This document shows positions 51,873 through 62,892 of a DNA stretch of 64,000 nucleotides, in pieces. The stretch comes from Pseudomonas svalbardensis. Lineage in GTDB: Bacteria; Pseudomonadota; Gammaproteobacteria; Pseudomonadales; Pseudomonadaceae. The stretch lies in the NCBI RefSeq assembly GCF_030053115.1, contig NZ_CP125619.1, forward strand, positions 2,047,001 through 2,111,000, given 5' to 3'. Under the pieces are notes generated by a model. It was not told where the DNA came from. It worked only from the letters and a program-made list of their open reading frames with translations, and ran no database searches. Each line of letters opens with the position of its first letter. The first letter of the stretch is position 1. Both the position numbers and the translations under genes were made by a program.

Positions 51873-54587
51873 TCACGAGGTGACGGCGACCGGCTGCGCA
51901 GTGGCGGCCAGCAGACGCTTGATTTCCGGGACGCAGGAGCCGCATTGCGTGCCGCAGCCCAATTCTTGTTTCAAGCCCTGCAGGTCCAGGCCGCGGCTAA
52001 TGCCGGCGCAGACCGCGCTTTGGCTGACGTTTTTGCAGTTGCACAGGGTTTTGTTACCGATGGCCGGCGTACGGGTGTTGCCCGGTGGTGCGCTCAGCGG
52101 TGCCAGCAGCCAGCGCCGCAGCTGTTCGTCAGCGCGACCTTCCAGCCACAGGCTTTGCAGCCAGTGTTGGGCAAGGGTTTCACCGGCCAGGCGAATGGCA
52201 GTGATCCGGCCGTTCTCGATCCGCACCCGTTTACCGATGGAGCGCCGTGGGTCGTCGTAGGCCAAAACCGGGCCATCGTTGAGTCCCAGGCATTGATCGA
52301 TATCACGCAGCAATTGCGGATCGGGCGCGACGGCGCTGGCCGCGCGTACCAGCAGCGCGGGGCGTTCGCGGCCGGCCAGGCTGAGGCTGACGTAGGAAAG
52401 CGCCTCACAGAGCGGCCGTAGCGTCTCAAAATGCTGTTGAACATCGCCCTCGATCAGGGCGAACAGGTTCCACGGCAGTTCCACCGGTTCCAGGCGCACG
52501 CCGCTGTGTTTGAGTTCGGGCTGTTTCGATAGCGGGTCGAAGGCGGGAAGAGTGAGGGTATTTACGCCGCCCTTGAGGAAGCGATCACCCCAATGCATTG
52601 GCAGAAAGGCCTGGCCGGGTCGCACGCTGTCGTCACCGCCGACGGCGACAATCAACGCGCCACGGCGACTTTTCAGGCTGACCAGGTCGCCCGATTGCAG
52701 CCGATGCCGGCGTAGTTCATCCGGGTGCAAACTCAACACGGCTTCGCTGACGTGGCCGAATAGTTGTGCGGCGGTGCCGGTGCGGCTCATGCCGTGCCAT
52801 TGATCCCGCAGGCGGCCGGTGATCAGGGTCAGCGGGAAGCGCGCGTCGCGTTGTTCCTTGGCGGCGCGATACGGGTCAGCCACGAATTGCGCACGTCCAC
52901 TGGCCGTCGGGAAAATTCCGTCCAGGTACAGCCGCGCCGTACCTTCGCTGGCGCCAGTGGGGAAGGGCCATTGCTGCGGGCCGAGGTGGTCGATCAGTGC
53001 ATGACTGATGCCGGACAAGTCCAGATCACGCCCGCGCGTCAATTGCTTGTACTCGTCGAAGACCTGCGCCGGGTTTTCAAAGGCAAACAGGCTGGTTTGA
53101 TCGGGACGTAGATATTTTTCCAGGCGCTGTGCGAAATCAACGGTGATCGCCCAGTCAGAGCGGGCTTCGCCGGGTGCGACGATGGCTCGACGAACGTGGG
53201 AAATGCGCCGTTCGGAGTTGGTCACCGTACCGTCCTTTTCGCCCCAACTGGCGGCGGGCAACAACAGGTCTGCGAAGGCTGCGGTTTCGGTGGTGCGAAA
53301 GGCCTCCTGCAATACCACGAACGGGCAGGCTTGCAGTGCCGCGCGCACGGCGGTTTGATCCGGCATTGATTGCGCAGGGTTGGTGCAGGCGATCCACAGT
53401 GCCTTGATTTTTCCGCTGCGCATCTGCTCAAACAACTCGATAGCGGTGAGCCCGGTGTTTGCAGGCAGTTGATCCACGCCCCAATACGCTGCCACTTCCG
53501 CGCGATCTTCGGCATTGGCGGCCTCGCGATGGCCGGGCAGCAGGTTCGACAAGCTGCCGGTTTCGCGACCACCCATGGCGTTTGGCTGACCGGTCAGGGA
53601 GAACGGTCCTGCACCGGGGCGGCCGATTTGTCCGGTGGCCAGGTGCAGGTTGATCAGCGCACTGTTTTTCGCGCTGCCGGCGGTGGACTGGTTCAAGCCC
53701 ATGCACCACAGCGACAGGAAGCTCGGTGAAGTGCCAACCCATTCGGCGCATTGCTGCAGTTGCTCGACGCTGATCCCGCAGAGCTGCGAAACCATCTGCG
53801 GCGTGTAATCGCGCACCAGGTTTTTCAGTTCGGCCAAGCCTTCGGTGTGGGCCTTGATGAAGTCGCGGTCGACCCAGTCTTCCCACAACAGCAGGTGCAA
53901 AATCCCATGGAACAACGCGACATCGGTGCCCGGCAGAATCGCCAGGTGCAGGTCAGCCAAATCGCAGGTGTCGGTACGACGCGGGTCGATGACGATGACT
54001 TTCATCTGCGGCCGGCGGGATTTCGCTTCCTCCAGGCGACGGAAAAGTATCGGGTGGGCGTAGGCCATGTTGCTGCCGACGATCATCACGCAGTCGCTCA
54101 ATTCCAGGTCTTCGTAGCTGCATGGCGGTGCGTCGGCGCCCAGGCTGCGCTTGTAGCCGACCACTGCCGAAGACATGCACAGGCGCGAATTGCTGTCGAT
54201 GTTGTTGGTGCCCACCAGCGCTCGCGCCAGTTTGTTGAAGGCGTAGTAATCCTCGGTCAGCAATTGCCCGGAAATGTAGAACGCCACGCTGTCCGGGCCG
54301 TGTTCGGCGATGGTTTCGGCAAAAACGCTGGCGGCGTGATCGAGGGCGGTATCCCAGTCAGTGCGGCTGCGTGCCAGGCCTTTTCCCAGGCGCAGTTCGG
54401 GATACAACGCCCGGGCCGCGAGGTCGCCGGTCAGGTGCAAGGTAGAGCCTTTACTGCACAGTTTGCCGAAGTTGGCCGGGTGGGTCGGATCGCCGCTGAC
54501 GCCGAGAATGCGCTCGCCGTCATGCTCGATCAGCACGCCGCAGCCGACCCCGCAATAGCAGCAGGTGGAAGCGGTGATCTGGTTCAT
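51873..54587 (-). CDS. Assimilatory nitrate reductase, molybdopterin catalytic subunit
   Basis: The 904-residue enzyme reduces nitrate to nitrite. The N-terminal CCYCGVGCGV…KLCSKG binds a [4Fe-4S] cluster, and molybdopterin domains follow (NSNMAYAHPILFRRLEEAKSR type stretches). A C-terminal [2Fe-2S] BFD-like domain (LCNCKNVSQSAVC…GCGTQCGSCVPEIKRLL) takes electrons, as in NasA/NasC-type enzymes. The start MNQITASTC overlaps the nirD stop as TGATG; an upstream in-frame ATG would read into nirD. Twin-arginine signal absent, so it is cytoplasmic. Confidence 0.94.
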   Translation of the reverse strand: MNQITASTCCYCGVGCGVLIEHDGERILGVSGDPTHPANFGKLCSKGSTLHLTGDLAARALYPELRLGKGLARSRTDWDTALDHAASVFAETIAEHGPDSVAFYISGQLLTEDYYAFNKLARALVGTNNIDSNSRLCMSSAVVGYKRSLGADAPPCSYEDLELSDCVMIVGSNMAYAHPILFRRLEEAKSRRPQMKVIVIDPRRTDTCDLADLHLAILPGTDVALFHGILHLLLWEDWVDRDFIKAHTEGLAELKNLVRDYTPQMVSQLCGISVEQLQQCAEWVGTSPSFLSLWCMGLNQSTAGSAKNSALINLHLATGQIGRPGAGPFSLTGQPNAMGGRETGSLSNLLPGHREAANAEDRAEVAAYWGVDQLPANTGLTAIELFEQMRSGKIKALWIACTNPAQSMPDQTAVRAALQACPFVVLQEAFRTTETAAFADLLLPAASWGEKDGTVTNSERRISHVRRAIVAPGEARSDWAITVDFAQRLEKYLRPDQTSLFAFENPAQVFDEYKQLTRGRDLDLSGISHALIDHLGPQQWPFPTGASEGTARLYLDGIFPTASGRAQFVADPYRAAKEQRDARFPLTLITGRLRDQWHGMSRTGTAAQLFGHVSEAVLSLHPDELRRHRLQSGDLVSLKSRRGALIVAVGGDDSVRPGQAFLPMHWGDRFLKGGVNTLTLPAFDPLSKQPELKHSGVRLEPVELPWNLFALIEGDVQQHFETLRPLCEALSYVSLSLAGRERPALLVRAASAVAPDPQLLRDIDQCLGLNDGPVLAYDDPRRSIGKRVRIENGRITAIRLAGETLAQHWLQSLWLEGRADEQLRRWLLAPLSAPPGNTRTPAIGNKTLCNCKNVSQSAVCAGISRGLDLQGLKQELGCGTQCGSCVPEIKRLLAATAQPVAVTS

Positions 54588-54904
54588 CAGCTTGCTTCCC
54601 GCAGGGCCAGAAACACCCGGCCATTCTCGACCCGTGCTGAATGGTGGTGAGCGCAACCGATGTCCGGGGCCTGTGCTTCGCCGGTTTCCAGGTCGATCTG
54701 CCAGTTATGCAGCGGGCAGGCGACCCGTTTGCCGTAGATCAAACCTTGGGACAGTGGCCCGCCCTTGTGCGGGCAGCGGTCATCGAGTGCGAAAACCTCA
54801 TTGTCGCTGGTACGAAAAATCGCGATGTCGCCTTTCGGGCCGGCAATGATCCGCGAGCCCAGGGCATTGATTTCTTCCAGTGCGCAGATATCCAGCCAGT
54901 TCAT
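54587..54904 (-). CDS. nirD: Nitrite reductase small subunit
   Basis: The 105-residue Rieske-like subunit of NADH-nitrite reductase keeps both cluster pairs, CPH (RCPHKGG near residue 44) and CPLH (VACPLHNW near 62), so it probably binds a [2Fe-2S] cluster, unlike enteric NirD, which lacks them. The start MNWLDICALEEIN overlaps the nirB stop as ATGA and its stop overlaps the reductase start as TGATG, so the three genes are translationally coupled. An in-frame upstream extension is inside nirB and is not used. Confidence 0.93.
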   Translation of the reverse strand: MNWLDICALEEINALGSRIIAGPKGDIAIFRTSDNEVFALDDRCPHKGGPLSQGLIYGKRVACPLHNWQIDLETGEAQAPDIGCAHHHSARVENGRVFLALREAS

Positions 54905-57354
54905 GCCGGCACCTCCAGATTCTTCACCGTGATGACGTCGAATTCTTTCTTCAGCAGCGGCTGTTCCAGGCGTTCCTTCCACGGGTCCTGTTCGAACGAC
55001 AAGGAGAATTGCAAGCGATCGTTGAGTGCCTTGCGCCGCTCCGGGTCTTCCAGCACGGCTTTCTTGATGTGTTCCATGCCGACCCGTTGCAGGTAGTGCA
55101 CGGTGCGTTCGAGGTAGAAAGCTTCTTCGCGATAGAGCTGCAGGAACGCGCCGTTGTATTCGCGCACTTCCTCGGCGGTCTTGAGCTTGACGAAGAATTC
55201 CGCGACTTCGGTTTTGATCCCGCCGTTGCCACCGATGTACATCTCCCAGCCCGAATCCACGCCGATAATTCCGACGTCCTTGATGCCTGCTTCCGAACAG
55301 TTGCGAGGGCAACCGGAGACGGCCAGTTTCACTTTGTGCGGCGACCACATGTTGAACAGGTCGTGCTCAAGCTCGATGCCCAGTTGCGTGGAGTTCTGGG
55401 TACCGAAGCGGCAGAACTCACTGCCGACGCAGGTTTTCACGGTGCGGATGGATTTGCCGTAGGCGTGGCCGGACGGCATGTCGAGGTCCTTCCAGACGCC
55501 CGGCAGGTCCTGCTTCTTGATCCCCAGCAAATCGATACGCTGGCCGCCGGTCACCTTGATCATTGGCACGTTGTATTTGTCGGCCACGTCGGCAATGCGC
55601 CGCAGCTCCGAAGGATTGGTCACACCGCCCCACATCCGCGGGACTACAGAGTAAGTGCCGTCTTTCTGAATGTTGGCGTGGGCCCGTTCGTTGATCAGGC
55701 GCGATTGCGGGTCGTCCTTGGCTTCGCCAGGCCAGGTGGAAATCAGGTAGTAGTTGAGCGCCGGCCGGCACGTGGCGCAGCCGTTCGGCGTGCGCCAGTT
55801 CAAATAGCTCAGGGTGCCGGAGATGGTCAGCAGATGCTGCTCGCGGATGGCCTGGCGGATTTGCCCGTGGTTCAAGTCGCTGCAACCGCAAATGGCTTTT
55901 TCGCTTTTCGGTTTGACGTCCGCTGCGCCGCCCACGGTGTTGATCAGGATCTGTTCCACCAACCCGGCGCAGGAGCCGCAGGAGCTGGCAGCCTTGGTGT
56001 GTTTCTTGACGTCGTCGACGCTGAACAACCCGTGCTCCTGAATCGCCTTGACGATGGTGCCTTTGCACACGCCGTTGCAGCCGCAGACTTCGGCGGTGTC
56101 GGCCATGCTCATGGCTTTGTCCTGGCCTTGATGTCCTACATCGCCTAAAGCGTTTTCACCGAACATCAGGTGATCGCGGATCTCGTCGATGGCGTGATTC
56201 TCACGGATCTGCCGGAAATACCAGCCACCGTCTGCCGTATCGCCGTACAGACAGGCCCCGACCAGCACGTCATCCTTGATCACCAGTTTTTTGTAGACCC
56301 CGCCGATAGGGTCGGAAAGGGTGATGGTTTCGGTGCCTTCGCCGCCCATGAAGTCGCCGGCGGAGAACAGGTCGATGCCGGTGACTTTCAATTTGGTCGA
56401 CGTCACCGAGCCCTTGTAGGTGGCGAAGCCCAATTGGGCGAGGTGGTTGGCGCAGACCTTGGCCTGTTCGAACAGCGGCGCCACCAGGCCGTAAGCGATG
56501 CCGCGGTGACTGGCGCATTCGCCGATGGCGTAGATGCGTGGGTCGTAGGTTTGCAGGGTGTCGTTGACCAGAATCCCGCGGTTGCAGGGAATACCGGATT
56601 TTTCCGCGAGTTCGGTGTTGGGTCGAATACCGGCGGCCATCACCACCAGGTCGGCGGGGATGATGTCGCCATTCTTGAACTCAACCGAGCCGACCCGGCC
56701 ATTGCCGGCATCGTGCAGGGCCTGGGTTTGCTCGCAAAGACGAAAGTGCAGGCCGCGGGCTTCCAGGGCGGTTTGCAGCAACTGACCGCTGGTTTTGTCC
56801 AGTTGCCGTTCCAGCAGCCATTCACCGATGTGCACCACGGTGACGTGCATGCCGCGCAGCATCAGGCCGTTGGCGGCTTCCAGGCCGAGCAGGCCGCCAC
56901 CGATCACAACGGCGTGCTTGTGGGTTTTCGCGGTGTCGATCATTGCTTGGGTGTCGGCGATGTCGCGGTAGCCGATCACGCCGTCCAAGGTGTTGCCGGG
57001 GATCGGCAGGATGAACGGAGTCGAGCCGGTGGCGATCAGCAGGCGATCGTATTCGGCCTCGCTGCCGTCTTCGGCGATAACCCGGCGTTTGACCCGGTCG
57101 ATCTCCACCACTTTGCGGTTGAGCAGCAGCTTGATGTTGTTGTCCAGGTACCAGTCCAGATCGTTCAGCACGATCTCTTCGAAGGTTTGTTCGCCGGCCA
57201 GCACGGGCGACAGCAGGATGCGGTTGTAGTTGGTATGAGGTTCGGCGCCGAAGACCGTGATGTCGTACAGCTCATTGCTCAACTTGAGCAGTTCTTCCAG
57301 GGTGCGAACCCCGGCCATGCCGTTGCCGATCATCACCAGTTTTAGTTTTTTCAT
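54901..57354 (-). CDS. nirB: NADH-dependent nitrite reductase large subunit
   Basis: The 817-residue enzyme reduces nitrite to ammonium. The FAD/NAD domains begin MKKLKLVMIGNGMAGVRTLEE. Two BFD-like [2Fe-2S] units follow (CGCNGVCKGTIV near residue 420 and SSCGSCAGLVEQIL near 458). The siroheme/[4Fe-4S] site TCVGSEFCRFGTQNS … VSGCPRNCSEA lies near 640–685. The start at 57354 gives the family N-terminus; an upstream in-frame ATG at 57423 falls in the leader terminator. First gene of the operon, preceded by the NasT-target leader. Confidence 0.96.
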   Translation of the reverse strand: MKKLKLVMIGNGMAGVRTLEELLKLSNELYDITVFGAEPHTNYNRILLSPVLAGEQTFEEIVLNDLDWYLDNNIKLLLNRKVVEIDRVKRRVIAEDGSEAEYDRLLIATGSTPFILPIPGNTLDGVIGYRDIADTQAMIDTAKTHKHAVVIGGGLLGLEAANGLMLRGMHVTVVHIGEWLLERQLDKTSGQLLQTALEARGLHFRLCEQTQALHDAGNGRVGSVEFKNGDIIPADLVVMAAGIRPNTELAEKSGIPCNRGILVNDTLQTYDPRIYAIGECASHRGIAYGLVAPLFEQAKVCANHLAQLGFATYKGSVTSTKLKVTGIDLFSAGDFMGGEGTETITLSDPIGGVYKKLVIKDDVLVGACLYGDTADGGWYFRQIRENHAIDEIRDHLMFGENALGDVGHQGQDKAMSMADTAEVCGCNGVCKGTIVKAIQEHGLFSVDDVKKHTKAASSCGSCAGLVEQILINTVGGAADVKPKSEKAICGCSDLNHGQIRQAIREQHLLTISGTLSYLNWRTPNGCATCRPALNYYLISTWPGEAKDDPQSRLINERAHANIQKDGTYSVVPRMWGGVTNPSELRRIADVADKYNVPMIKVTGGQRIDLLGIKKQDLPGVWKDLDMPSGHAYGKSIRTVKTCVGSEFCRFGTQNSTQLGIELEHDLFNMWSPHKVKLAVSGCPRNCSEAGIKDVGIIGVDSGWEMYIGGNGGIKTEVAEFFVKLKTAEEVREYNGAFLQLYREEAFYLERTVHYLQRVGMEHIKKAVLEDPERRKALNDRLQFSLSFEQDPWKERLEQPLLKKEFDVITVKNLEVPA

Positions 57355-57425
57355 CAGGTTCTCCGGGGAGCTCGGACCCGCCTCATCAGGGCTTTCAGGT
57401 CTTGCTCGACAAAATTTGCGCAAAC

Positions 57426-57512
57426 AAAAAAAGGCGTCCCGCTAGTTGCCTAGCGAGGACGCCTTTGTCCTGGTCCCGTTCTCTCGGGCAGCGCATCCTT
57501 CATCGTTGAAGG
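57426..57512 (-). promoter_or_regulatory. ANTAR-type antitermination leader of nirB
   Basis: On the minus strand, hairpin P1 is CCTTC-AACGAT-GAAGG (57497–57512) and P2 is CCCG-AGAGAA-CGGG (57475–57488). Both have six-base loops with A at position 1 and G at position 4, the ANTAR recognition signature. Then come GACAAAGGCGTC and a strong terminator: AAAGGCGTCC/GGACGCCTTT (57430–57439 with 57457–57466) with an inner CGCTAG/CTAGCG stem and U7. NasT, released by nitrate-bound NasS, should bind P1/P2 and prevent termination. Confidence 0.88.
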
Positions 57513-57541
57513 CTGGGCTTTATGTATGGTGAGAGAGGTAA

Positions 57542-57557
57542 TGCAGTGGTTGTGCCA
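57542..57557 (-). promoter_or_regulatory. Sigma-54 promoter of the nirB operon
   Basis: TGGCACAACCACTGCA on the minus strand matches the -24/-12 consensus with exact GG–GC spacing. The predicted start, about 57532, places both ANTAR hairpins inside the leader RNA. Confidence 0.78.
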
Positions 57558-57621
57558 AGTTCTTCAGGTACCCGGATTTACTGGGGTTGGTCGCGGACTC
57601 GGCATTTGATTTGGATGTTTT

Positions 57622-57708: not shown

Positions 57709-59379
57709 TTAGCCGTGAAATATCAAAACCAGCAACACCAGGTTCACCAGCAACGACACCAGCGCCAAGGTCCGCCAGACCTTCAACGGTTCGCGCTCCA
57801 GCAGCGGTCTGGGTCGCACGCTCAAACTGCGCCGCTCGCCCTGTTCCAGCAGCAGCAACCATTCTTCCGCCGTTTCAAAGCGTTGATCCGGATCCGCCGC
57901 CACGGCGTGCTCCAGACTTTGCGTAATCCATTCCGGCAGGTCGGGTCGATAGCGACTGGCGCTGACAGGAACCCCGAACCGTGGGCGCTGGAAGGCTTCG
58001 ATTTCGCCGTAGGGATAATGCCCGGTGAGCAGGAAATACAAGGTCACGCCGACGGCATACAGGTCCTGTTGCGGTGTCGGTGCTTCCCCGCGAAAGGCTT
58101 CCGGCGCGATGTAACTGGGTGTTCCGGGCAGGGCAGAAGGCTGATCTTCGGAAAGGCCCGGGCAGTAGGCGAGACCAAAGTCCAGCAGGCGTAATTCGCC
58201 GTCGTCCCCCAGCAGCAGGTTCTCCGGTTTGATATCGCGATGGAGAATCTGCCGTCGATGCAGCATGCCAACGGCGCGCAGCAGGCGTTCGGCCAAATCC
58301 TGCCATTGGGGCAGAGGCAGCGGTCCGACATCGGCGTGCAACTCCGCCAAGGTAGATCCGGAATATTCCCGCATCACGTAGTACAAATGCTGACGCTGAC
58401 TGGCGGCGTGGACTTCAGGGAAATGCCGCCCGGCCACGCGCTTGAGAAACCATTCTTCCGACAGCAACGCCTGCCCGGCCAAGTGATCGTCGCGCAGTGC
58501 ACCGGGCAAGGTTTTCAGCAGCCAGGGTTGTTGTTGCCCATCGCGTACCCGATAGAGCAGCGACTGCTGGCTCTGGCCGAGTAATCCCTCAATCTGCCAG
58601 CCCTCGAAAGTCTGGCCAGCTTTCAAGGCTGGCGGCAGCGGCCATTGCTGCAAATGAATCAACGCATCGCCGATGCTCGTTTCACCGAGGGCATCGACCC
58701 GCACCAGCAAGGCGCTGGCATTGTCCTGGCTGCCGGCCAGATGCGCCGCGTTGACCAAGGTCTGCGCGGCGCTGTTCAGATCCGGTTGATCGCGCAGAAT
58801 TGCCGCAATCGCGGTGTCACCCAGCACGGCCCAAATGCCGTCGCTGAGCAGTACGAAACTTTCGTTCAACCGCAGTTCGCCATCGAGAAAATCCAGCACC
58901 AAATGCTGATCGAGCCCAAGGGCCCGTTTGAGCACATGCTGCATGCCGGGCTGGTCCCAGACGTGATCCTCGCTGACCCGCTGCAAGGTGTCGGCGTGCC
59001 AGCGATAAACCCGGCAATCTCCGACATGGGCCAAGGTAAAACGCCTACCGCGCATCACCAAAGCACTGACCGTGGTGAGCAACGGTTGCCCACCGCCATT
59101 GGCCTGCAACCAGCGATTTTGGGCCAGTAGCAGACGATCCAATGCCTGTGCGACACCCCAGGTTTCCGGTGTGGCGTAGTAATCCAGCGCCAAAGCCTGC
59201 AACGTCGAGCGGGCGGCGAGGCCACCATCGGCGCACTGGCTGACGCCATCGGCGATGGCGAACAGGTAACCCTTGCTCGCCGCCAGCGCCGGGGCCGGAG
59301 TCACCAGGCGCAGGGCGTCCTGATTCTCCTCGCGAGGGCCGATGGCGCTCGCTTCGGCAAAACTCAGTTGCAGGCTCAT
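57709..59379 (-). CDS. PP2C phosphatase–Ser/Thr protein kinase fusion
   Basis: The 556-residue protein begins with a PP2C domain (residues 1–240: ENQDAL, AIADGVSQCADGG, AHVGDCRVYR, LLSDGIWAVLGD). A Hanks-type kinase domain follows (about 265–520: HRDIKPENLLL, DFGLAYCPG, GTPSYIAPEAF) and a C-terminal membrane helix (LALVSLLVNLVLLVLIF) ends it. It starts 7 bp after the nasA transporter stop, in one operon. The fusion puts opposing activities in one membrane-bound chain. Targets are unknown; nitrate transporter or reductase control is a guess from context. Confidence 0.9.
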   Translation of the reverse strand: MSLQLSFAEASAIGPREENQDALRLVTPAPALAASKGYLFAIADGVSQCADGGLAARSTLQALALDYYATPETWGVAQALDRLLLAQNRWLQANGGGQPLLTTVSALVMRGRRFTLAHVGDCRVYRWHADTLQRVSEDHVWDQPGMQHVLKRALGLDQHLVLDFLDGELRLNESFVLLSDGIWAVLGDTAIAAILRDQPDLNSAAQTLVNAAHLAGSQDNASALLVRVDALGETSIGDALIHLQQWPLPPALKAGQTFEGWQIEGLLGQSQQSLLYRVRDGQQQPWLLKTLPGALRDDHLAGQALLSEEWFLKRVAGRHFPEVHAASQRQHLYYVMREYSGSTLAELHADVGPLPLPQWQDLAERLLRAVGMLHRRQILHRDIKPENLLLGDDGELRLLDFGLAYCPGLSEDQPSALPGTPSYIAPEAFRGEAPTPQQDLYAVGVTLYFLLTGHYPYGEIEAFQRPRFGVPVSASRYRPDLPEWITQSLEHAVAADPDQRFETAEEWLLLLEQGERRSLSVRPRPLLEREPLKVWRTLALVSLLVNLVLLVLIFHG

Positions 59380-59386
59380 TAAGGCT

Positions 59387-60598
59387 TCAGACCCGAGCAG
59401 CGGTCACGGCTGCCGAACCCCAAGTGGTTCTCCAGCGACGTTTCACGCCGTGCAGACCGAACCAGGCCAGAACGCCAAGGCTGGCGAACAACCACAAGGC
59501 CAGTTGATAGCTGCCGGTGCTTTGTTTGATCGCGCCCATGCCCGCTGCCAGTGCAAATCCACCAATACCGCCGGCCATGCCGATCAAACCGGTCATCACA
59601 CCGATCTCGCGACGAAAGCGCTGCGGCACCAATTGGAAAACGGCGCCGTTACCTGCGCCCAAACCGAGCATGGTGCAGACGAAAAGTGCCAGTGCCGCGT
59701 AGGAACTCGGCAGATTGAAACCCACCGCTGCGATGCAGACCGCCGCCACCGTGTACATCCCCAAGAGGGTGCGAATGCCACCGAAACGGTCGGCCAGAGC
59801 GCCGCCCAACGGACGCATCAAGCTGCCACCGAACACGCAGGCTGCGGTGTAGTAACCGGCAGTCACCGGGCTCAGGCCATATTGGTCGTTGAAATAGCCG
59901 GGCAGGGCGCTGGCGAGGCCGATGAAGCCGCCGAAGGTCACGCTGTAGAAAAACATGAACCACCAGCTGTCGCGGTCGCCCAAGGCCTTGAAGTAGTCGG
60001 ACATCGATTTGGCTTTTGGCCGTTCAGGCGCGTTTTTGGCCAGCCAGGCGAAGACGATGAGGGTCAGGATCAGCGGGATCAGGGCGAAGCCGAACACGTT
60101 GCTCCAGCCAAATGCAGCGGCCAGCACCGGGGCGATCAGTGCAGCGAGCACTGTGCCCGAGTTACCGGCACCGGCGATGCCCATGGCTTTGCCTTGGTGT
60201 TGTGGCGGATACCATTGCGACGCCAGCGGCAGAGCGACGGCGAAGGATGCGCCGGCCATGCCGAGGAACAGGCCCAGCACCAGCGCTTGTTCATAACTGT
60301 GGATGCCGAGTTTCCAGGCGCCGAACAGGGCGCAGATGACGATCACCTGTCCAATCAGCCCGGCGGTTTTCGGCGACAGGCGATCAGCCAGCAAGCCCAT
60401 CACAAAGCGCAATACCGCCCCGGCCAGAATCGGCGTGGCCACCATCAGTCCGCGCTGTTGGGTGGTCAGCTGCAGATCGGCGGCGATCTGCACCGCCATT
60501 GGACCGAGCAGGTACCAGACCATGAAACTCAGGTCGAAATAGAGGAAGGCCGCGAACAGTGTCGGGGTATGGCCGGATTTCCAGAAGCTTGAATTCAT
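59387..60598 (-). CDS. nasA: Nitrate transporter, MFS NarK/NasA family
   Basis: The 403-residue protein has twelve hydrophobic segments and the NNP signatures: FLGMAGASFAVALPLASQWYPPQHQGKAMGIAGAGNSGT near residue 100–140 and the second nitrate signature GMAGGIGGF near residue 345. It imports nitrate for assimilation. It is the first gene of the nasA-kinase unit and is preceded by a NasT-type leader and sigma-54 promoter. Confidence 0.94.
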   Translation of the reverse strand: MNSSFWKSGHTPTLFAAFLYFDLSFMVWYLLGPMAVQIAADLQLTTQQRGLMVATPILAGAVLRFVMGLLADRLSPKTAGLIGQVIVICALFGAWKLGIHSYEQALVLGLFLGMAGASFAVALPLASQWYPPQHQGKAMGIAGAGNSGTVLAALIAPVLAAAFGWSNVFGFALIPLILTLIVFAWLAKNAPERPKAKSMSDYFKALGDRDSWWFMFFYSVTFGGFIGLASALPGYFNDQYGLSPVTAGYYTAACVFGGSLMRPLGGALADRFGGIRTLLGMYTVAAVCIAAVGFNLPSSYAALALFVCTMLGLGAGNGAVFQLVPQRFRREIGVMTGLIGMAGGIGGFALAAGMGAIKQSTGSYQLALWLFASLGVLAWFGLHGVKRRWRTTWGSAAVTAARV

Positions 60599-60697: not shown

Positions 60698-60784
60698 CAA
60701 AAAAACGCCGCCACCGGATTCGCCAAAGGGCAAATGAGGTGAGCGACGTCTTTGTCGTAGGTGGGGCAACCGCCGTTGGTTACC
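60698..60784 (-). promoter_or_regulatory. ANTAR-type antitermination leader of nasA
   Basis: On the minus strand, the hairpin GGTAACC-AACGGC-GGTTGCC (60765–60784) has a six-base loop with A1 and G4. GACAAAGACGTC follows, then a terminator in which ACGTCGCTCACC pairs with GGTGGCGGCGT (one bulge) and U7 follows. A second hexaloop hairpin is not evident upstream. Confidence 0.8.
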
Positions 60785-60798
60785 TGTGGCGATTACCT

Positions 60799-60814
60799 AG
60801 CGAGATCTGTGCCA
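60799..60814 (-). promoter_or_regulatory. Sigma-54 promoter of nasA
   Basis: TGGCACAGATCTCGCT on the minus strand keeps the -24 GG and -12 GC with correct spacing. The predicted start is only a few bases before the hexaloop hairpin. Confidence 0.62.
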
Positions 60815-60952: not shown

Positions 60953-61528
60953 TCAGCCGAGCAACTCACTCATGGCGATGATCTGCTCCGCCACCTGAAT
61001 CAGCTTCTGCTGCCGGCTCATGGCCTGGCGGCGCATCAGGGTGTAGGCCTCTTCCTCGTTGCAGTCCTTCATTTTCATCAGCAGCCCTTTGGCCAGCTCG
61101 ATGCGCTTGCGCTCGGCAAGTTGCTGGTCGCGGGCGTTGAGCTGGGCGCGCAAGGCCTGGTCGCTTTCAAAACGCGCCATGGCCACGTCGAGAATCGGCT
61201 GCAAGCGCTGTGCGTGGATGCCTTCGACGATGTAGGCACTGACGCCGGACTTGATCGCCTGACGCATCACATCGGGGTCATGTTCATCGGTAAACATCAC
61301 GATCGGCCGCGGTTGGTCGCGGCTCACCAGCACCACTTGTTCCATCACATCGCGGCTCGGTGACTCGGTATCGATCAAAATCACGTCCGGACGCACCGTT
61401 TCGACGCGCGCGGGCAAGTCGATGGTCAGGCCCGACTCGTCGATCACCTCGAACCCGGCTTCGGTCAGGGCCGCCTTCAGGCGACCGACTTTCTTCGCGG
61501 TGTCGTTGATCAGCAGGATACGCAACAT
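60953..61528 (-). CDS. nasT: NasT, ANTAR RNA-binding antiterminator
   Basis: The 191-residue protein has a response-regulator-like N-terminal domain (MLRILLINDTAKKVGRLKAALTEAGF … VILIDTES) and a C-terminal three-helix ANTAR domain (RKRIELAKGLLMKMKDCNEEEAYTLMRRQAMSRQQKL, about residues 130–170). It binds hexaloop RNA hairpins and prevents termination at nitrate-assimilation leaders. It lies 15 bp after nasS. In the absence of nitrate NasS is known to hold NasT inactive. Confidence 0.94.
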   Translation of the reverse strand: MLRILLINDTAKKVGRLKAALTEAGFEVIDESGLTIDLPARVETVRPDVILIDTESPSRDVMEQVVLVSRDQPRPIVMFTDEHDPDVMRQAIKSGVSAYIVEGIHAQRLQPILDVAMARFESDQALRAQLNARDQQLAERKRIELAKGLLMKMKDCNEEEAYTLMRRQAMSRQQKLIQVAEQIIAMSELLG

Positions 61529-61543: not shown

Positions 61544-62755
61544 TCAGCGGCTGGCGAGAAGGGGCGAGCTGTCGCTCATGGCGTGCAGCTTGAAACTGCG
61601 GGCATAGCCGGCGGGGTCCAGGCCATCCCAGACCTTGCCGTCGATCAACTGGCTGCTGCGCATTGGCTGATCACTCACGGCCACACCTACGGTGGTGGCG
61701 GCCTCTCGATACAAGTCTAGTTGCTGGACCTGACGGGCCACGCCGAGGTAGTCCGGGTCGTCGCGCAACAAACCCCAACGGCGGAACTGAGTCATGAACC
61801 ACATGCCATCGGACAGATACGGCAGATTGACCTCGCCATCACCATGGAAGCGCAGCGCGTGCGGGTCTTGCCAGCGATGACCCAGGCCATCGGCGTAGTC
61901 ACCGAGCAATCGCGGTTCGATGCAGTCGAGCGGTGCGTCGAGGTATTGCGGGGCACTCAACAGCTTCGCGGTGCTGCGGCGATTCTCGGTGCTTTCTTCG
62001 ATGAAGCGGCTGGCCTCCAGAATCGCCATCACCAGCGCCCTTGCGGTGTTGGGGTATTGCTCGACAAAGGCGCGGGTGCAACCGAGGACTTTTTCCGGAT
62101 GATCGGGCCAGATGGTCTGGGTGGTTGCCATCGTGAACCCCAGACTTTGCTGCACCGCGCTGGCGGACCATGGCTCGCCGACGCAGAAGCCGTCGATGCG
62201 CCCGGCTTGCAGGTGCGCGACCATTTGCGGCGGCGGCACCACCACGCTGTCGACGTCCTGCAACGGGTGGATGCCCTGACTCGCGAGCCAGTAATACAGC
62301 CACATGGCGTGGGTGCCCGTAGGAAATGTCTGGGCGAAGGTGAGTTTTGGGCGACTTTGGTGCACGTGCCGTTCCAGTGCTTCAGGACTGGTCACGCCCA
62401 GCGCCTGCAAGCCATGGGAGAGGTTGATGCTCTGGCCATTCTGATTCAGGCCCATGAGCACCGCCATGTCGGTCGATGCGACACCGCCGATGCCCAAATG
62501 CACGGCGTAGATCAAACCGTACAGGCTGTGGGCGGCGTCGAGTTCGCCACTGACCAGTTTGTCCCGCAGGTTGGCCCAGGACGACTGGCGCTTGAGGTTC
62601 AGGGTCAGGCCATAAGGTTGGGCAAAGCCCTGCGTGGCCGCGACCACTACCGAGGCGCAGTCGCTCAGGGCCATGAAGCCGAGGCTGATTTCGGTCTTTT
62701 CCGGGGCATCGCTGCCGTTGACCCAGGCCAGGGGGTTGGCTGGAACTTCAATCAT
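61544..62755 (-). CDS. nasS: NasS, nitrate sensor of NrtA/CmpA-type solute-binding fold
   Basis: The 403-residue protein resembles periplasmic nitrate-binding proteins (ISLGFMALSDCASVVVA, ARGLHAHHSLYGLIYAVHLGIGG-like region, FCVGEPWSASAVQQ near residue 205). It lacks any signal peptide, so it is cytoplasmic, as expected for NasS. It binds nitrate/nitrite and then releases NasT. The start MIEVPANPLAW at 62755 has GGAAGGTG about 10 nt upstream. First gene of nasS-nasT; a NasT-type leader precedes it. Confidence 0.93.
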   Translation of the reverse strand: MIEVPANPLAWVNGSDAPEKTEISLGFMALSDCASVVVAATQGFAQPYGLTLNLKRQSSWANLRDKLVSGELDAAHSLYGLIYAVHLGIGGVASTDMAVLMGLNQNGQSINLSHGLQALGVTSPEALERHVHQSRPKLTFAQTFPTGTHAMWLYYWLASQGIHPLQDVDSVVVPPPQMVAHLQAGRIDGFCVGEPWSASAVQQSLGFTMATTQTIWPDHPEKVLGCTRAFVEQYPNTARALVMAILEASRFIEESTENRRSTAKLLSAPQYLDAPLDCIEPRLLGDYADGLGHRWQDPHALRFHGDGEVNLPYLSDGMWFMTQFRRWGLLRDDPDYLGVARQVQQLDLYREAATTVGVAVSDQPMRSSQLIDGKVWDGLDPAGYARSFKLHAMSDSSPLLASR

Positions 62756-62772
62756 CAGTAAACACCTTCCAT

Positions 62773-62859
62773 AAAAAAGCGCCGGACCGGGCTGCTTGCC
62801 AGGGCAAGGCCAAGTGACGACGCCGTTGTCTTTCGACTCATCCCGCCGTTGGCATGAGT
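62773..62859 (-). promoter_or_regulatory. ANTAR-type leader of nasS-nasT itself
   Basis: On the minus strand, ACTCAT-g-CC, loop AACGGC, GG-g-ATGAGT (62836–62859) gives a hexaloop with A1 and G4, identical to the loop of the nasA leader. GACAACGGCGTC follows, then a GC-rich stem (GCGTCG with CGGCGC, plus inner CTTGCC/GGCAAG) and U6. The layout matches the other two leaders. Confidence 0.72.
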
Positions 62860-62876
62860 GCTGATGTCAGTGACGG

Positions 62877-62892
62877 TGCAAGGCATATGCCA
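62877..62892 (-). promoter_or_regulatory. Sigma-54 promoter of nasS-nasT
   Basis: TGGCATATGCCTTGCA on the minus strand matches the -24/-12 consensus closely (TTGCA intact, correct spacing). The predicted start near 62866 lies just before the leader hairpin. It is divergent from pyrD. Confidence 0.75.

Follow-up and report, generated by a model that had tools for sequence, protein, structure and literature searches.

The window analysed here, a stretch of 64,000 nucleotides from Pseudomonas svalbardensis, carries a nitrate locus on its minus strand in the order nasS, nasT, nasA, a phosphatase-kinase fusion, nirB and a molybdopterin oxidoreductase. nasS (61544..62755, with its ATG at 62755) encodes a nitrate/nitrite sensor of the NMT1_2 family and nasT (60953..61528) a protein with a receiver-like and an ANTAR domain (Pfam ANTAR, 61.5 bits). 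nasA (59387-60598) is a narK-type transporter gene by domain content, nirB occupies 54901-57423 and the oxidoreductase of the nitrate-reductase type 51873-54656. The names nasS, nasT and nasA were assigned from domain content and from the order described in the literature. Between the transporter gene and nirB sits a fusion of a PP2C phosphatase and a protein kinase (57709-59379), recognised by its domain content. NasT is 99-100% identical to the NasT of strains filed as P. fluorescens, P. mandelii and P. frederiksbergensis, and its PDB relatives by sequence are 1s8n, 6wsh/6ww6, AmiR (1qo0) and the nitrate regulatory protein 4akk. When the whole genome was searched, NasT was the sole ANTAR match, which leaves one candidate reader for any ANTAR-type leader in this genome.

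The leader of nasS begins with a putative sigma-54 promoter element, TGGCATATGCCTTGC (62878..62892, minus strand), which has the GG-N10-GC pattern in a TGGC..TTGC context. It is followed by the P1 hairpin ACTCATGCC-AACGGC-GGGATGAGT (62836..62859, minus strand), which was identified by folding, by covariation and by a finder for A1/G4 hexaloops. The P1 stem has one G-G mismatch and its A1/G4 hexaloop is closed by a C-G pair, a combination that was defined by SELEX for NasR (PMC7496416). After a linker of 5 nt comes the P2 hairpin GAC-AACGGC-GTC, the 12-mer GACAACGGCGTC (62819..62830, minus strand), which has a stem of only 3 bp and a 6-nt loop that, as in P1, begins with A and has G as its fourth base. 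The predicted intrinsic terminator (62773..62824, minus strand) consists of the stem GGCGTCG ... CGGCGCT and the T6 at 62778-62773, and the RBS of nasS, GGAAGG (62765..62770, minus strand), is directly downstream of the U-run. The preliminary description had named a sigma-54 promoter, a hexaloop, a GACAAnGrCGTC segment, a terminator-like stem and a U6 run, and all of these were found in place on the minus strand. The folds showed moreover that the GACAAnGrCGTC segment is itself a hairpin that overlaps the 5' arm of the terminator.

In the free fold, GGCGTCG (62824-62818) is paired with CGGCGCT (62784-62778). This 5' arm comprises the last six letters of the P2 12-mer and the next base. Since the terminator draws its 5' arm from the 3' half of P2, the RNA can form either P2 or the terminator base but not both; such a competition is described for ANTAR targets (PMC3369936, PMC8934654). 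The linker is short; for EutV, antitermination was lost when the linker was extended by 20 nt (PMC8934654). P1, P2, the exclusivity with the terminator, the short linker and a cognate ANTAR protein, by which a two-hairpin ANTAR attenuator is recognised, are thus all present in the window. Judged from its sequence, the nasS leader of roughly 112 nt is a real, conserved ANTAR-type attenuator in front of nasST.

Folded as a single sequence, the whole leader was not exceptionally stable (z -1.06, with 32 of 200 shuffles doing as well), and the terminator alone gave a z of -1.86 with 7 of 200 shuffles as good. A simple terminator scan found none in the nasS leader, because internal loops interrupt the stem. 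The sound terminator fold would also be in keeping with a simple intrinsic terminator, an insulator or an attenuator that is read by a small RNA, Rho or the translation of a leader peptide and not by NasT. Two A1/G4 hexaloops and a P2 that overlaps the terminator are, however, the signature of ANTAR targets, and NasT is the only ANTAR protein matched in the genome, so that we give this explanation hardly any weight. In the terminated single-sequence fold P1 is left free and exposes its A1/G4 loop, which would suit a leader that chiefly yields a short terminated RNA to titrate NasT. Rfam lists the nirB leader under the name 'Pseudomonas sRNA P11', and PMC8934654 discusses how EutX may sequester an ANTAR protein. 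A titrating RNA as the chief product is nevertheless unlikely, because the U-run directly precedes the RBS and the start of nasS and because P2, which is important for antitermination, is conserved. It would also be compatible with self-antitermination by NasT.

The leaders of nasA and nirB were compared with that of nasS. The nasA leader (60699..60814, minus strand) contains a sigma-54 element, P1 with an AACGGC loop, P2 as CGAC-AAAGAC-GTCG and a terminator with T7, and the Rfam narK RNA RF03032 matches within it at 60743-60813 with 81.2 bits. The nirB leader (57433..57569, minus strand) matches RF00625 (P11) with 127.9 bits and contains P2 as GGAC-AAAGGC-GTCC together with a terminator. The order of the elements is common to all three leaders and the P1 loop of nasS is identical to that of nasA, both of which the preliminary description had proposed and the sequence and the Rfam matches bore out; the P1 loop of nirB is AACGAT. 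The first positions of the RF03032 family coincide with the sigma-54 promoter, and the consensus of the family leaves the P2 segment ACGACAAAGACGUCGC unpaired, although CGAC-AAAGAC-GUCG could form a second ANTAR hairpin. In the nirB leader three A1/G4 hexaloop hairpins follow each other, CCTTC-AACGAT-GAAGG, CCCG-AGAGAA-CGGG and GGAC-AAAGGC-GTCC, and at least two such hairpins precede P2 in 58 of the 62 nirB loci of the relatives. These three hairpins bear on the question of whether an ANTAR dimer requires two loops.

The forcing of P2 in the window costs 4.1 kcal/mol in the nasS leader, 11.1 in nasA and 11.8 in nirB. Among close relatives, P2 was cheaper to force than in nirB at 51 of 61 loci for nasS and at 59 of 61 for nasA, and nasS was cheaper than nasA in 32 of 78. 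The median terminator energies in close relatives were -27.8 (79 nasS leaders), -27.5 (79 nasA) and -26.4 (62 nirB). A leaky nasS terminator that provides basal expression of the sensor was therefore rejected as a nasS-specific property, since there is no such trend across the close relatives.

The specificity of the leader within the genome was examined with the P2 12-mer GACAANGRCGTC. It occurs at 20 sites in the 6.36-Mb genome, versus 22 for the reversed control; this is a chance-level frequency, and the 12-mer was rejected as stand-alone evidence. We called a site complete if its P2 core is preceded by a sigma-54-like element at no more than 100 nt and followed by a T-run at 30-90 nt. The complete sites among the 20 are three, those in the nirB, nasA and nasS leaders, and at the remaining 17 both the sigma-54-like element and the T-run are missing. 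With RF03032, the nasS leader of the window obtained 31.5 bits (E 2e-4 locally), below the gathering score of 43.2, in an alignment that runs end to end (model 1-72). In the ranking over the genome the nasA leader came first (81.2 bits, E 2.5e-15), the nasS leader second (E 0.001) and the third hit had an E of 0.11. Of 20 family loci searched with this model, 7 have a nasS leader above the gathering score (L134, L127, L150, L114, L122, L117 and L123); the 20 include L113 and L158, which have no P2 core, and L157, which is not a nasST locus. The best score was 58.3 bits for L134; L122 belongs to the genus of the window and the other six to other genera. The gathering score was reached in none of the 10 close-relative loci that have a nasS leader; the 11th, L081, is without one.

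We then turned to the conservation of the leader. The combination of sigma-54 element, GACAANGRCGTC and at least five T was present in 80 of 81 leaders, i.e. those of 80 named Pseudomonas nasST loci and of the window, and the sigma-54 element alone in all 81. The hairpin and the U-run, on whose conservation in related strains the preliminary description had let its claim depend, are thus kept at 79 of the 80 named loci. The sole exception is P. psychrophila (L081), in which the sigma-54 element is located 37 nt before the start codon and P2 and the T-run are absent, although the sites of the nasA and nirB leaders are retained. Strict P2 sites were found in the leaders of nasS, nasA and nirB at 60 of the 80 loci, of nasS and nasA only at 18, of nasS and nirB only at 1 and of nasA and nirB only at 1 (L081), where some loci stop before nirB. 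In the nasS leaders of L069 and L073, P1 and P2 are separated by a linker that far exceeds that of the other close relatives, with P1, P2 and the terminator retained. Extra GACAATGGCGTC sites far upstream, at about -3873 from nasT in L018 and about -3769 in L073, showed no sigma-54-like element or T-run nearby and were taken as chance.

For the family, 198 genomes were searched, 155 had a NasS match and 90 loci were read; the denominator used here is the 88 loci in which NasT adjoins NasS, including that of the window. A P2 core was found at nasST in 66 of the 88 with variants allowed and in 55 under the strict pattern. Among the 66, P2 is followed by at least five T in 51 and at least four T in 64, which leaves 15 without a run of five T. 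A looser sigma-54 pattern was present at 77 of the 88 loci and accompanied the P2 core in 59 of the 66. Of the 22 loci without a P2 core, 18 keep the sigma-54 pattern and 4 have neither, as scored by regular expression, so that some of these leaders may be degenerate and not empty; in two of them, L108 and L153, a terminator-like end is still visible. In L081, L092, L095, L096, L099 and L100 the sigma-54 element and the start are 31-47 nt apart, a distance that would fit the excision of the entire module. On a quick NasS tree with 101 rows, the presence of P2 required 9 changes, 6 of them forced by starred branches. We read this as an attenuator that is old in the Pseudomonadaceae and was often lost, while the count of changes itself does not separate gain from loss.

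The class-wide draw comprised 274 genomes, 41 of which had a match, and 28 non-family loci were read. All 16 non-family nasST pairs are nasT-first. A P2-like motif was found within 260 nt upstream of nasT in none of the 16, two of which are weak NasT matches (29-31% identity) and some of which have an unsure nasT start. In this sample the nasS-first order with an attenuator of its own thus appears as a feature of the Pseudomonadaceae.

Several other arrangements were seen in the family. The nasS-nasT operon is present twice in each of three genomes of one sister genus, G094 (L135/L136), G070 (L138/L139) and G011 (L168/L169), and every copy has an attenuator-like leader. The P2 loop starts with G instead of A (GACGATGGCGTC) in L136, L138 and L169, whose NasT proteins are 77-79% identical, and also in L168, which suggests an altered recognition; among the 66 family loci that have a P2 core, 6 show a loop with an initial G. 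P2-like cores and T-runs also stand before NasS-like genes that have no adjacent NasT match, in L157, L167, L205, L219, L225 and L228, with a sigma-54 element as well in the first three. These genes presumably encode NrtA-like transporter proteins, and their leaders are perhaps further ANTAR targets in other genomes.

Compensatory base changes were analysed in an alignment of 43 leaders, with NasS proteins of the rows down to about 64% identity, and compared with 500 shuffles, which ignore the relatedness of the rows. In P1, 77.9% of the cells form standard pairs versus 58.9% in the shuffles (reached by 0 of 500), 75 cells are changed on both sides versus 28.2 (0 of 500) and the covariation score is 0.343 versus 0.129 (0 of 500). 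When the partners were slid, at most 48.6% were paired. Changes on both sides occur in 8 of the 9 pairs versus 6.7, a count that 80 of the 500 shuffles reached and for which the control is weak. At the terminator base, 98.8% of the base-stem cells are paired over the 43 rows (0 of 500 shuffles, also for the score), and 11 cells are changed on both sides versus 3.2 (0 of 500). The both-side changes affect 3 of its 8 pairs, again a weak control with 27 of 500 shuffles reaching this number. At the terminator pair 74/147, U-A replaces C-G in 2 rows, and in L103 and L116 the core GGTGTC is matched by the terminator partner GGCACC.

The three core pairs of P2 are invariant in all 43 rows and therefore give no covariation support for P2; the fourth pair fails in 24 of the 43, the window included. 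The covariation that the preliminary description had suggested looking for was accordingly obtained for P1 and the terminator base, next to an invariant P2 core. A P1 with a C-G-closed A1/G4 hexaloop and a score of at least 4.5 was found in 121 of 145 leaders, versus 4.6% of the shuffles. None reaching this threshold was found in the other 24, among them the seven leaders of one genus, g5 (L141, L146, L151, L152, L154, L156 and L165), in which the P2 core and the T-run are kept.

These data bear on whether the leader is a relic or a passive duplicate of the nasA leader, with nasST controlled by sigma-54 and NtrC only and the hairpins of minor importance. The attenuator is dispensable, as 22 of the 88 family loci and 1 of the 80 genus loci, P. 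psychrophila L081, manage without a P2 core, and 18 of the 22 as well as L081 keep the sigma-54 pattern. The expression of nasS and nasT is also strongly lowered in an ntrC mutant of P. stutzeri (PMC8443478). Yet P1 and the terminator base show compensatory changes over rows with NasS down to about 64% identity, and the module, where it is lost, often disappears whole. In addition, the P2 loops of close relatives are specific for the gene: AAAGAC at 79 of the 79 nasA sites found, AAAGGC at 62 of 62 for nirB, and for nasS AATGGC at 59 of 79, AAAGGC at 12, AACGGC at 5 and others at 3. This argues against recent copying, and we regard the relic as very unlikely.

We consider it highly probable that the leader of nasS-nasT is a two-hairpin ANTAR attenuator that answers to NasT, a product of its own operon. 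The control of nasS-nasT by its own antiterminator, the central claim of the preliminary description, is strongly supported by the comparative anatomy and by NasT as the only ANTAR match, and NasT very probably antiterminates its own operon in a positive feedback behind a sigma-54 gate. The anatomy, the exclusivity of P2 and terminator, the conservation, the compensatory changes and the uniqueness in the genome were computed directly, and we propose the following course of events. At sigma-54 promoters, transcription begins about 11 nt beyond the GC element, and the polymerase would initiate near 62867, probably activated by NtrC. Without nitrate, NasS would retain NasT, P2 would fail to persist and the terminator would form, so that most transcripts would end at the U-run, just short of the nasS RBS, and the leak would give both proteins at a basal level. 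Once nitrate or nitrite is present, NasS would release NasT, which would bind to the A1/G4 hexaloops of P1 and then of P2. A P2 held by NasT would withdraw the 5' arm of the terminator base, and the polymerase would read into nasST. NasS and NasT would be made together and provide a larger pool for the readthrough of the nasA and nirB leaders. The co-production of NasS could, on the other hand, buffer the loop instead of amplifying it.

The involvement of NtrC was examined with a consensus of 12 positions. The best match upstream of nasS in the window agrees at 9 of the 12 positions, which is not convincing. In the 80 relatives the best scores ranged from 7 to 10 (38 at 9 and 36 at 8), with 14.2 per 80 at 9 in the shuffles. 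Most of these matches come from a small set of recurring stretches, 172-175 or 294 nt upstream, which probably fall inside the divergent pyrD. In the same scan nirB showed TGCAATGTTTCAGTGCA 81 nt upstream. A 7.25-fold increase of nasT under nitrogen limitation is reported for P. putida (PMC7801951); this fits a nitrogen-gated promoter and says nothing on the attenuator.

The behaviour of the feedback was followed in a toy model with arbitrary parameters. The loop narrowed the 10-90% input range from 44.7-fold to 11.2-fold at a Hill coefficient of 1 and from 8.9-fold to 1.4-fold at 2. Two stable states required a cooperativity of at least 2 and a low leak: they appeared at Hill 2 up to 8% leak but not at 10%, at Hill 3 up to 20% but not at 30%, and not at all at Hill 1, and bistability as a necessary outcome was rejected accordingly. 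Since the model sharpens the response and is bistable only with cooperativity and a low leak, a switch-like behaviour is possible but not implied. We give a rather low probability, though not a negligible one, to the wider picture in which the self-antiterminating nasS-first operon is old in the Pseudomonadaceae and was repeatedly lost, its loop is cooperative and possibly bistable, and an isogenic population divides, at intermediate nitrate, into cells that use nitrate and cells that do not.

If NasT antiterminates its own operon, the NasST of pseudomonads would be a self-amplifying sensor and not a fixed pool. The levels of nasST would depend on nitrate, and the induction would be sharper or dependent on history. 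Signals that act on NasT would then also alter its amount, for which c-di-GMP in P. putida is an example (PMC12830290). Strains that have the sigma-54 element but lack the whole attenuator offer ready-made comparisons with and without the loop.

Among the known systems, the narK RNA RF03032 shares with the nasS leader the sigma-54 element, P1 with the AACGGC loop and the P2 core, but it precedes a transporter gene, whereas the nasS leader precedes regulator genes, and its Rfam consensus has P2 unpaired. The nirB leader (RF00625 P11 or NalA), which is antiterminated by NasT in P. aeruginosa and P. putida (PMC12830290, PMC7261876, PMC7801951), likewise has the sigma-54 element, hexaloop hairpins and a P2 overlapping the terminator. 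It differs in having mostly at least two A1/G4 hexaloop hairpins before P2, whereas the nasS leader of the window has one. The attenuators of EutV at eutP and of NasR at nasF also have A1/G4 hexaloops in P1 and P2 and a P2 that is exclusive with the terminator (PMC3369931, PMC3369936, PMC7496416, PMC8934654). Their inputs are different, as EutV depends on the kinase EutW and NasR on its NIT domain, whereas NasT is held by its partner NasS.

In Paracoccus, nitrate or nitrite frees NasT from NasS, and NasT binds to the nasA leader RNA (PMC3795266). The nasTS genes of Paracoccus denitrificans resemble the locus described here in the NasS-NasT pair, and an NtrC-type site is reported before nasT, which is raised by nitrate; in contrast, nasT comes first and the antitermination is assigned to nasA (PMC5424462). 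In B. diazoefficiens, hairpins in the leaders of genes that are lowered in the nasT mutant are clear for two genes (PMC6759348). The accessible portions of the open-licence literature contained no statement of a nasST leader of this kind. A precedent for such control is AmiC-AmiR of the amiECBRS operon of P. aeruginosa, in which a ligand-binding protein also holds the ANTAR protein (PMC3369936). There the amiE leader under control precedes amiR in the same operon, which implies that AmiR controls itself, and a self-controlled ANTAR regulator is thus of a known kind. AmiR, however, rides on the structural operon, whereas the nasST leader is separate from the leaders of its targets. In conclusion, the new element seems to be a dedicated attenuator on a separate regulator operon.
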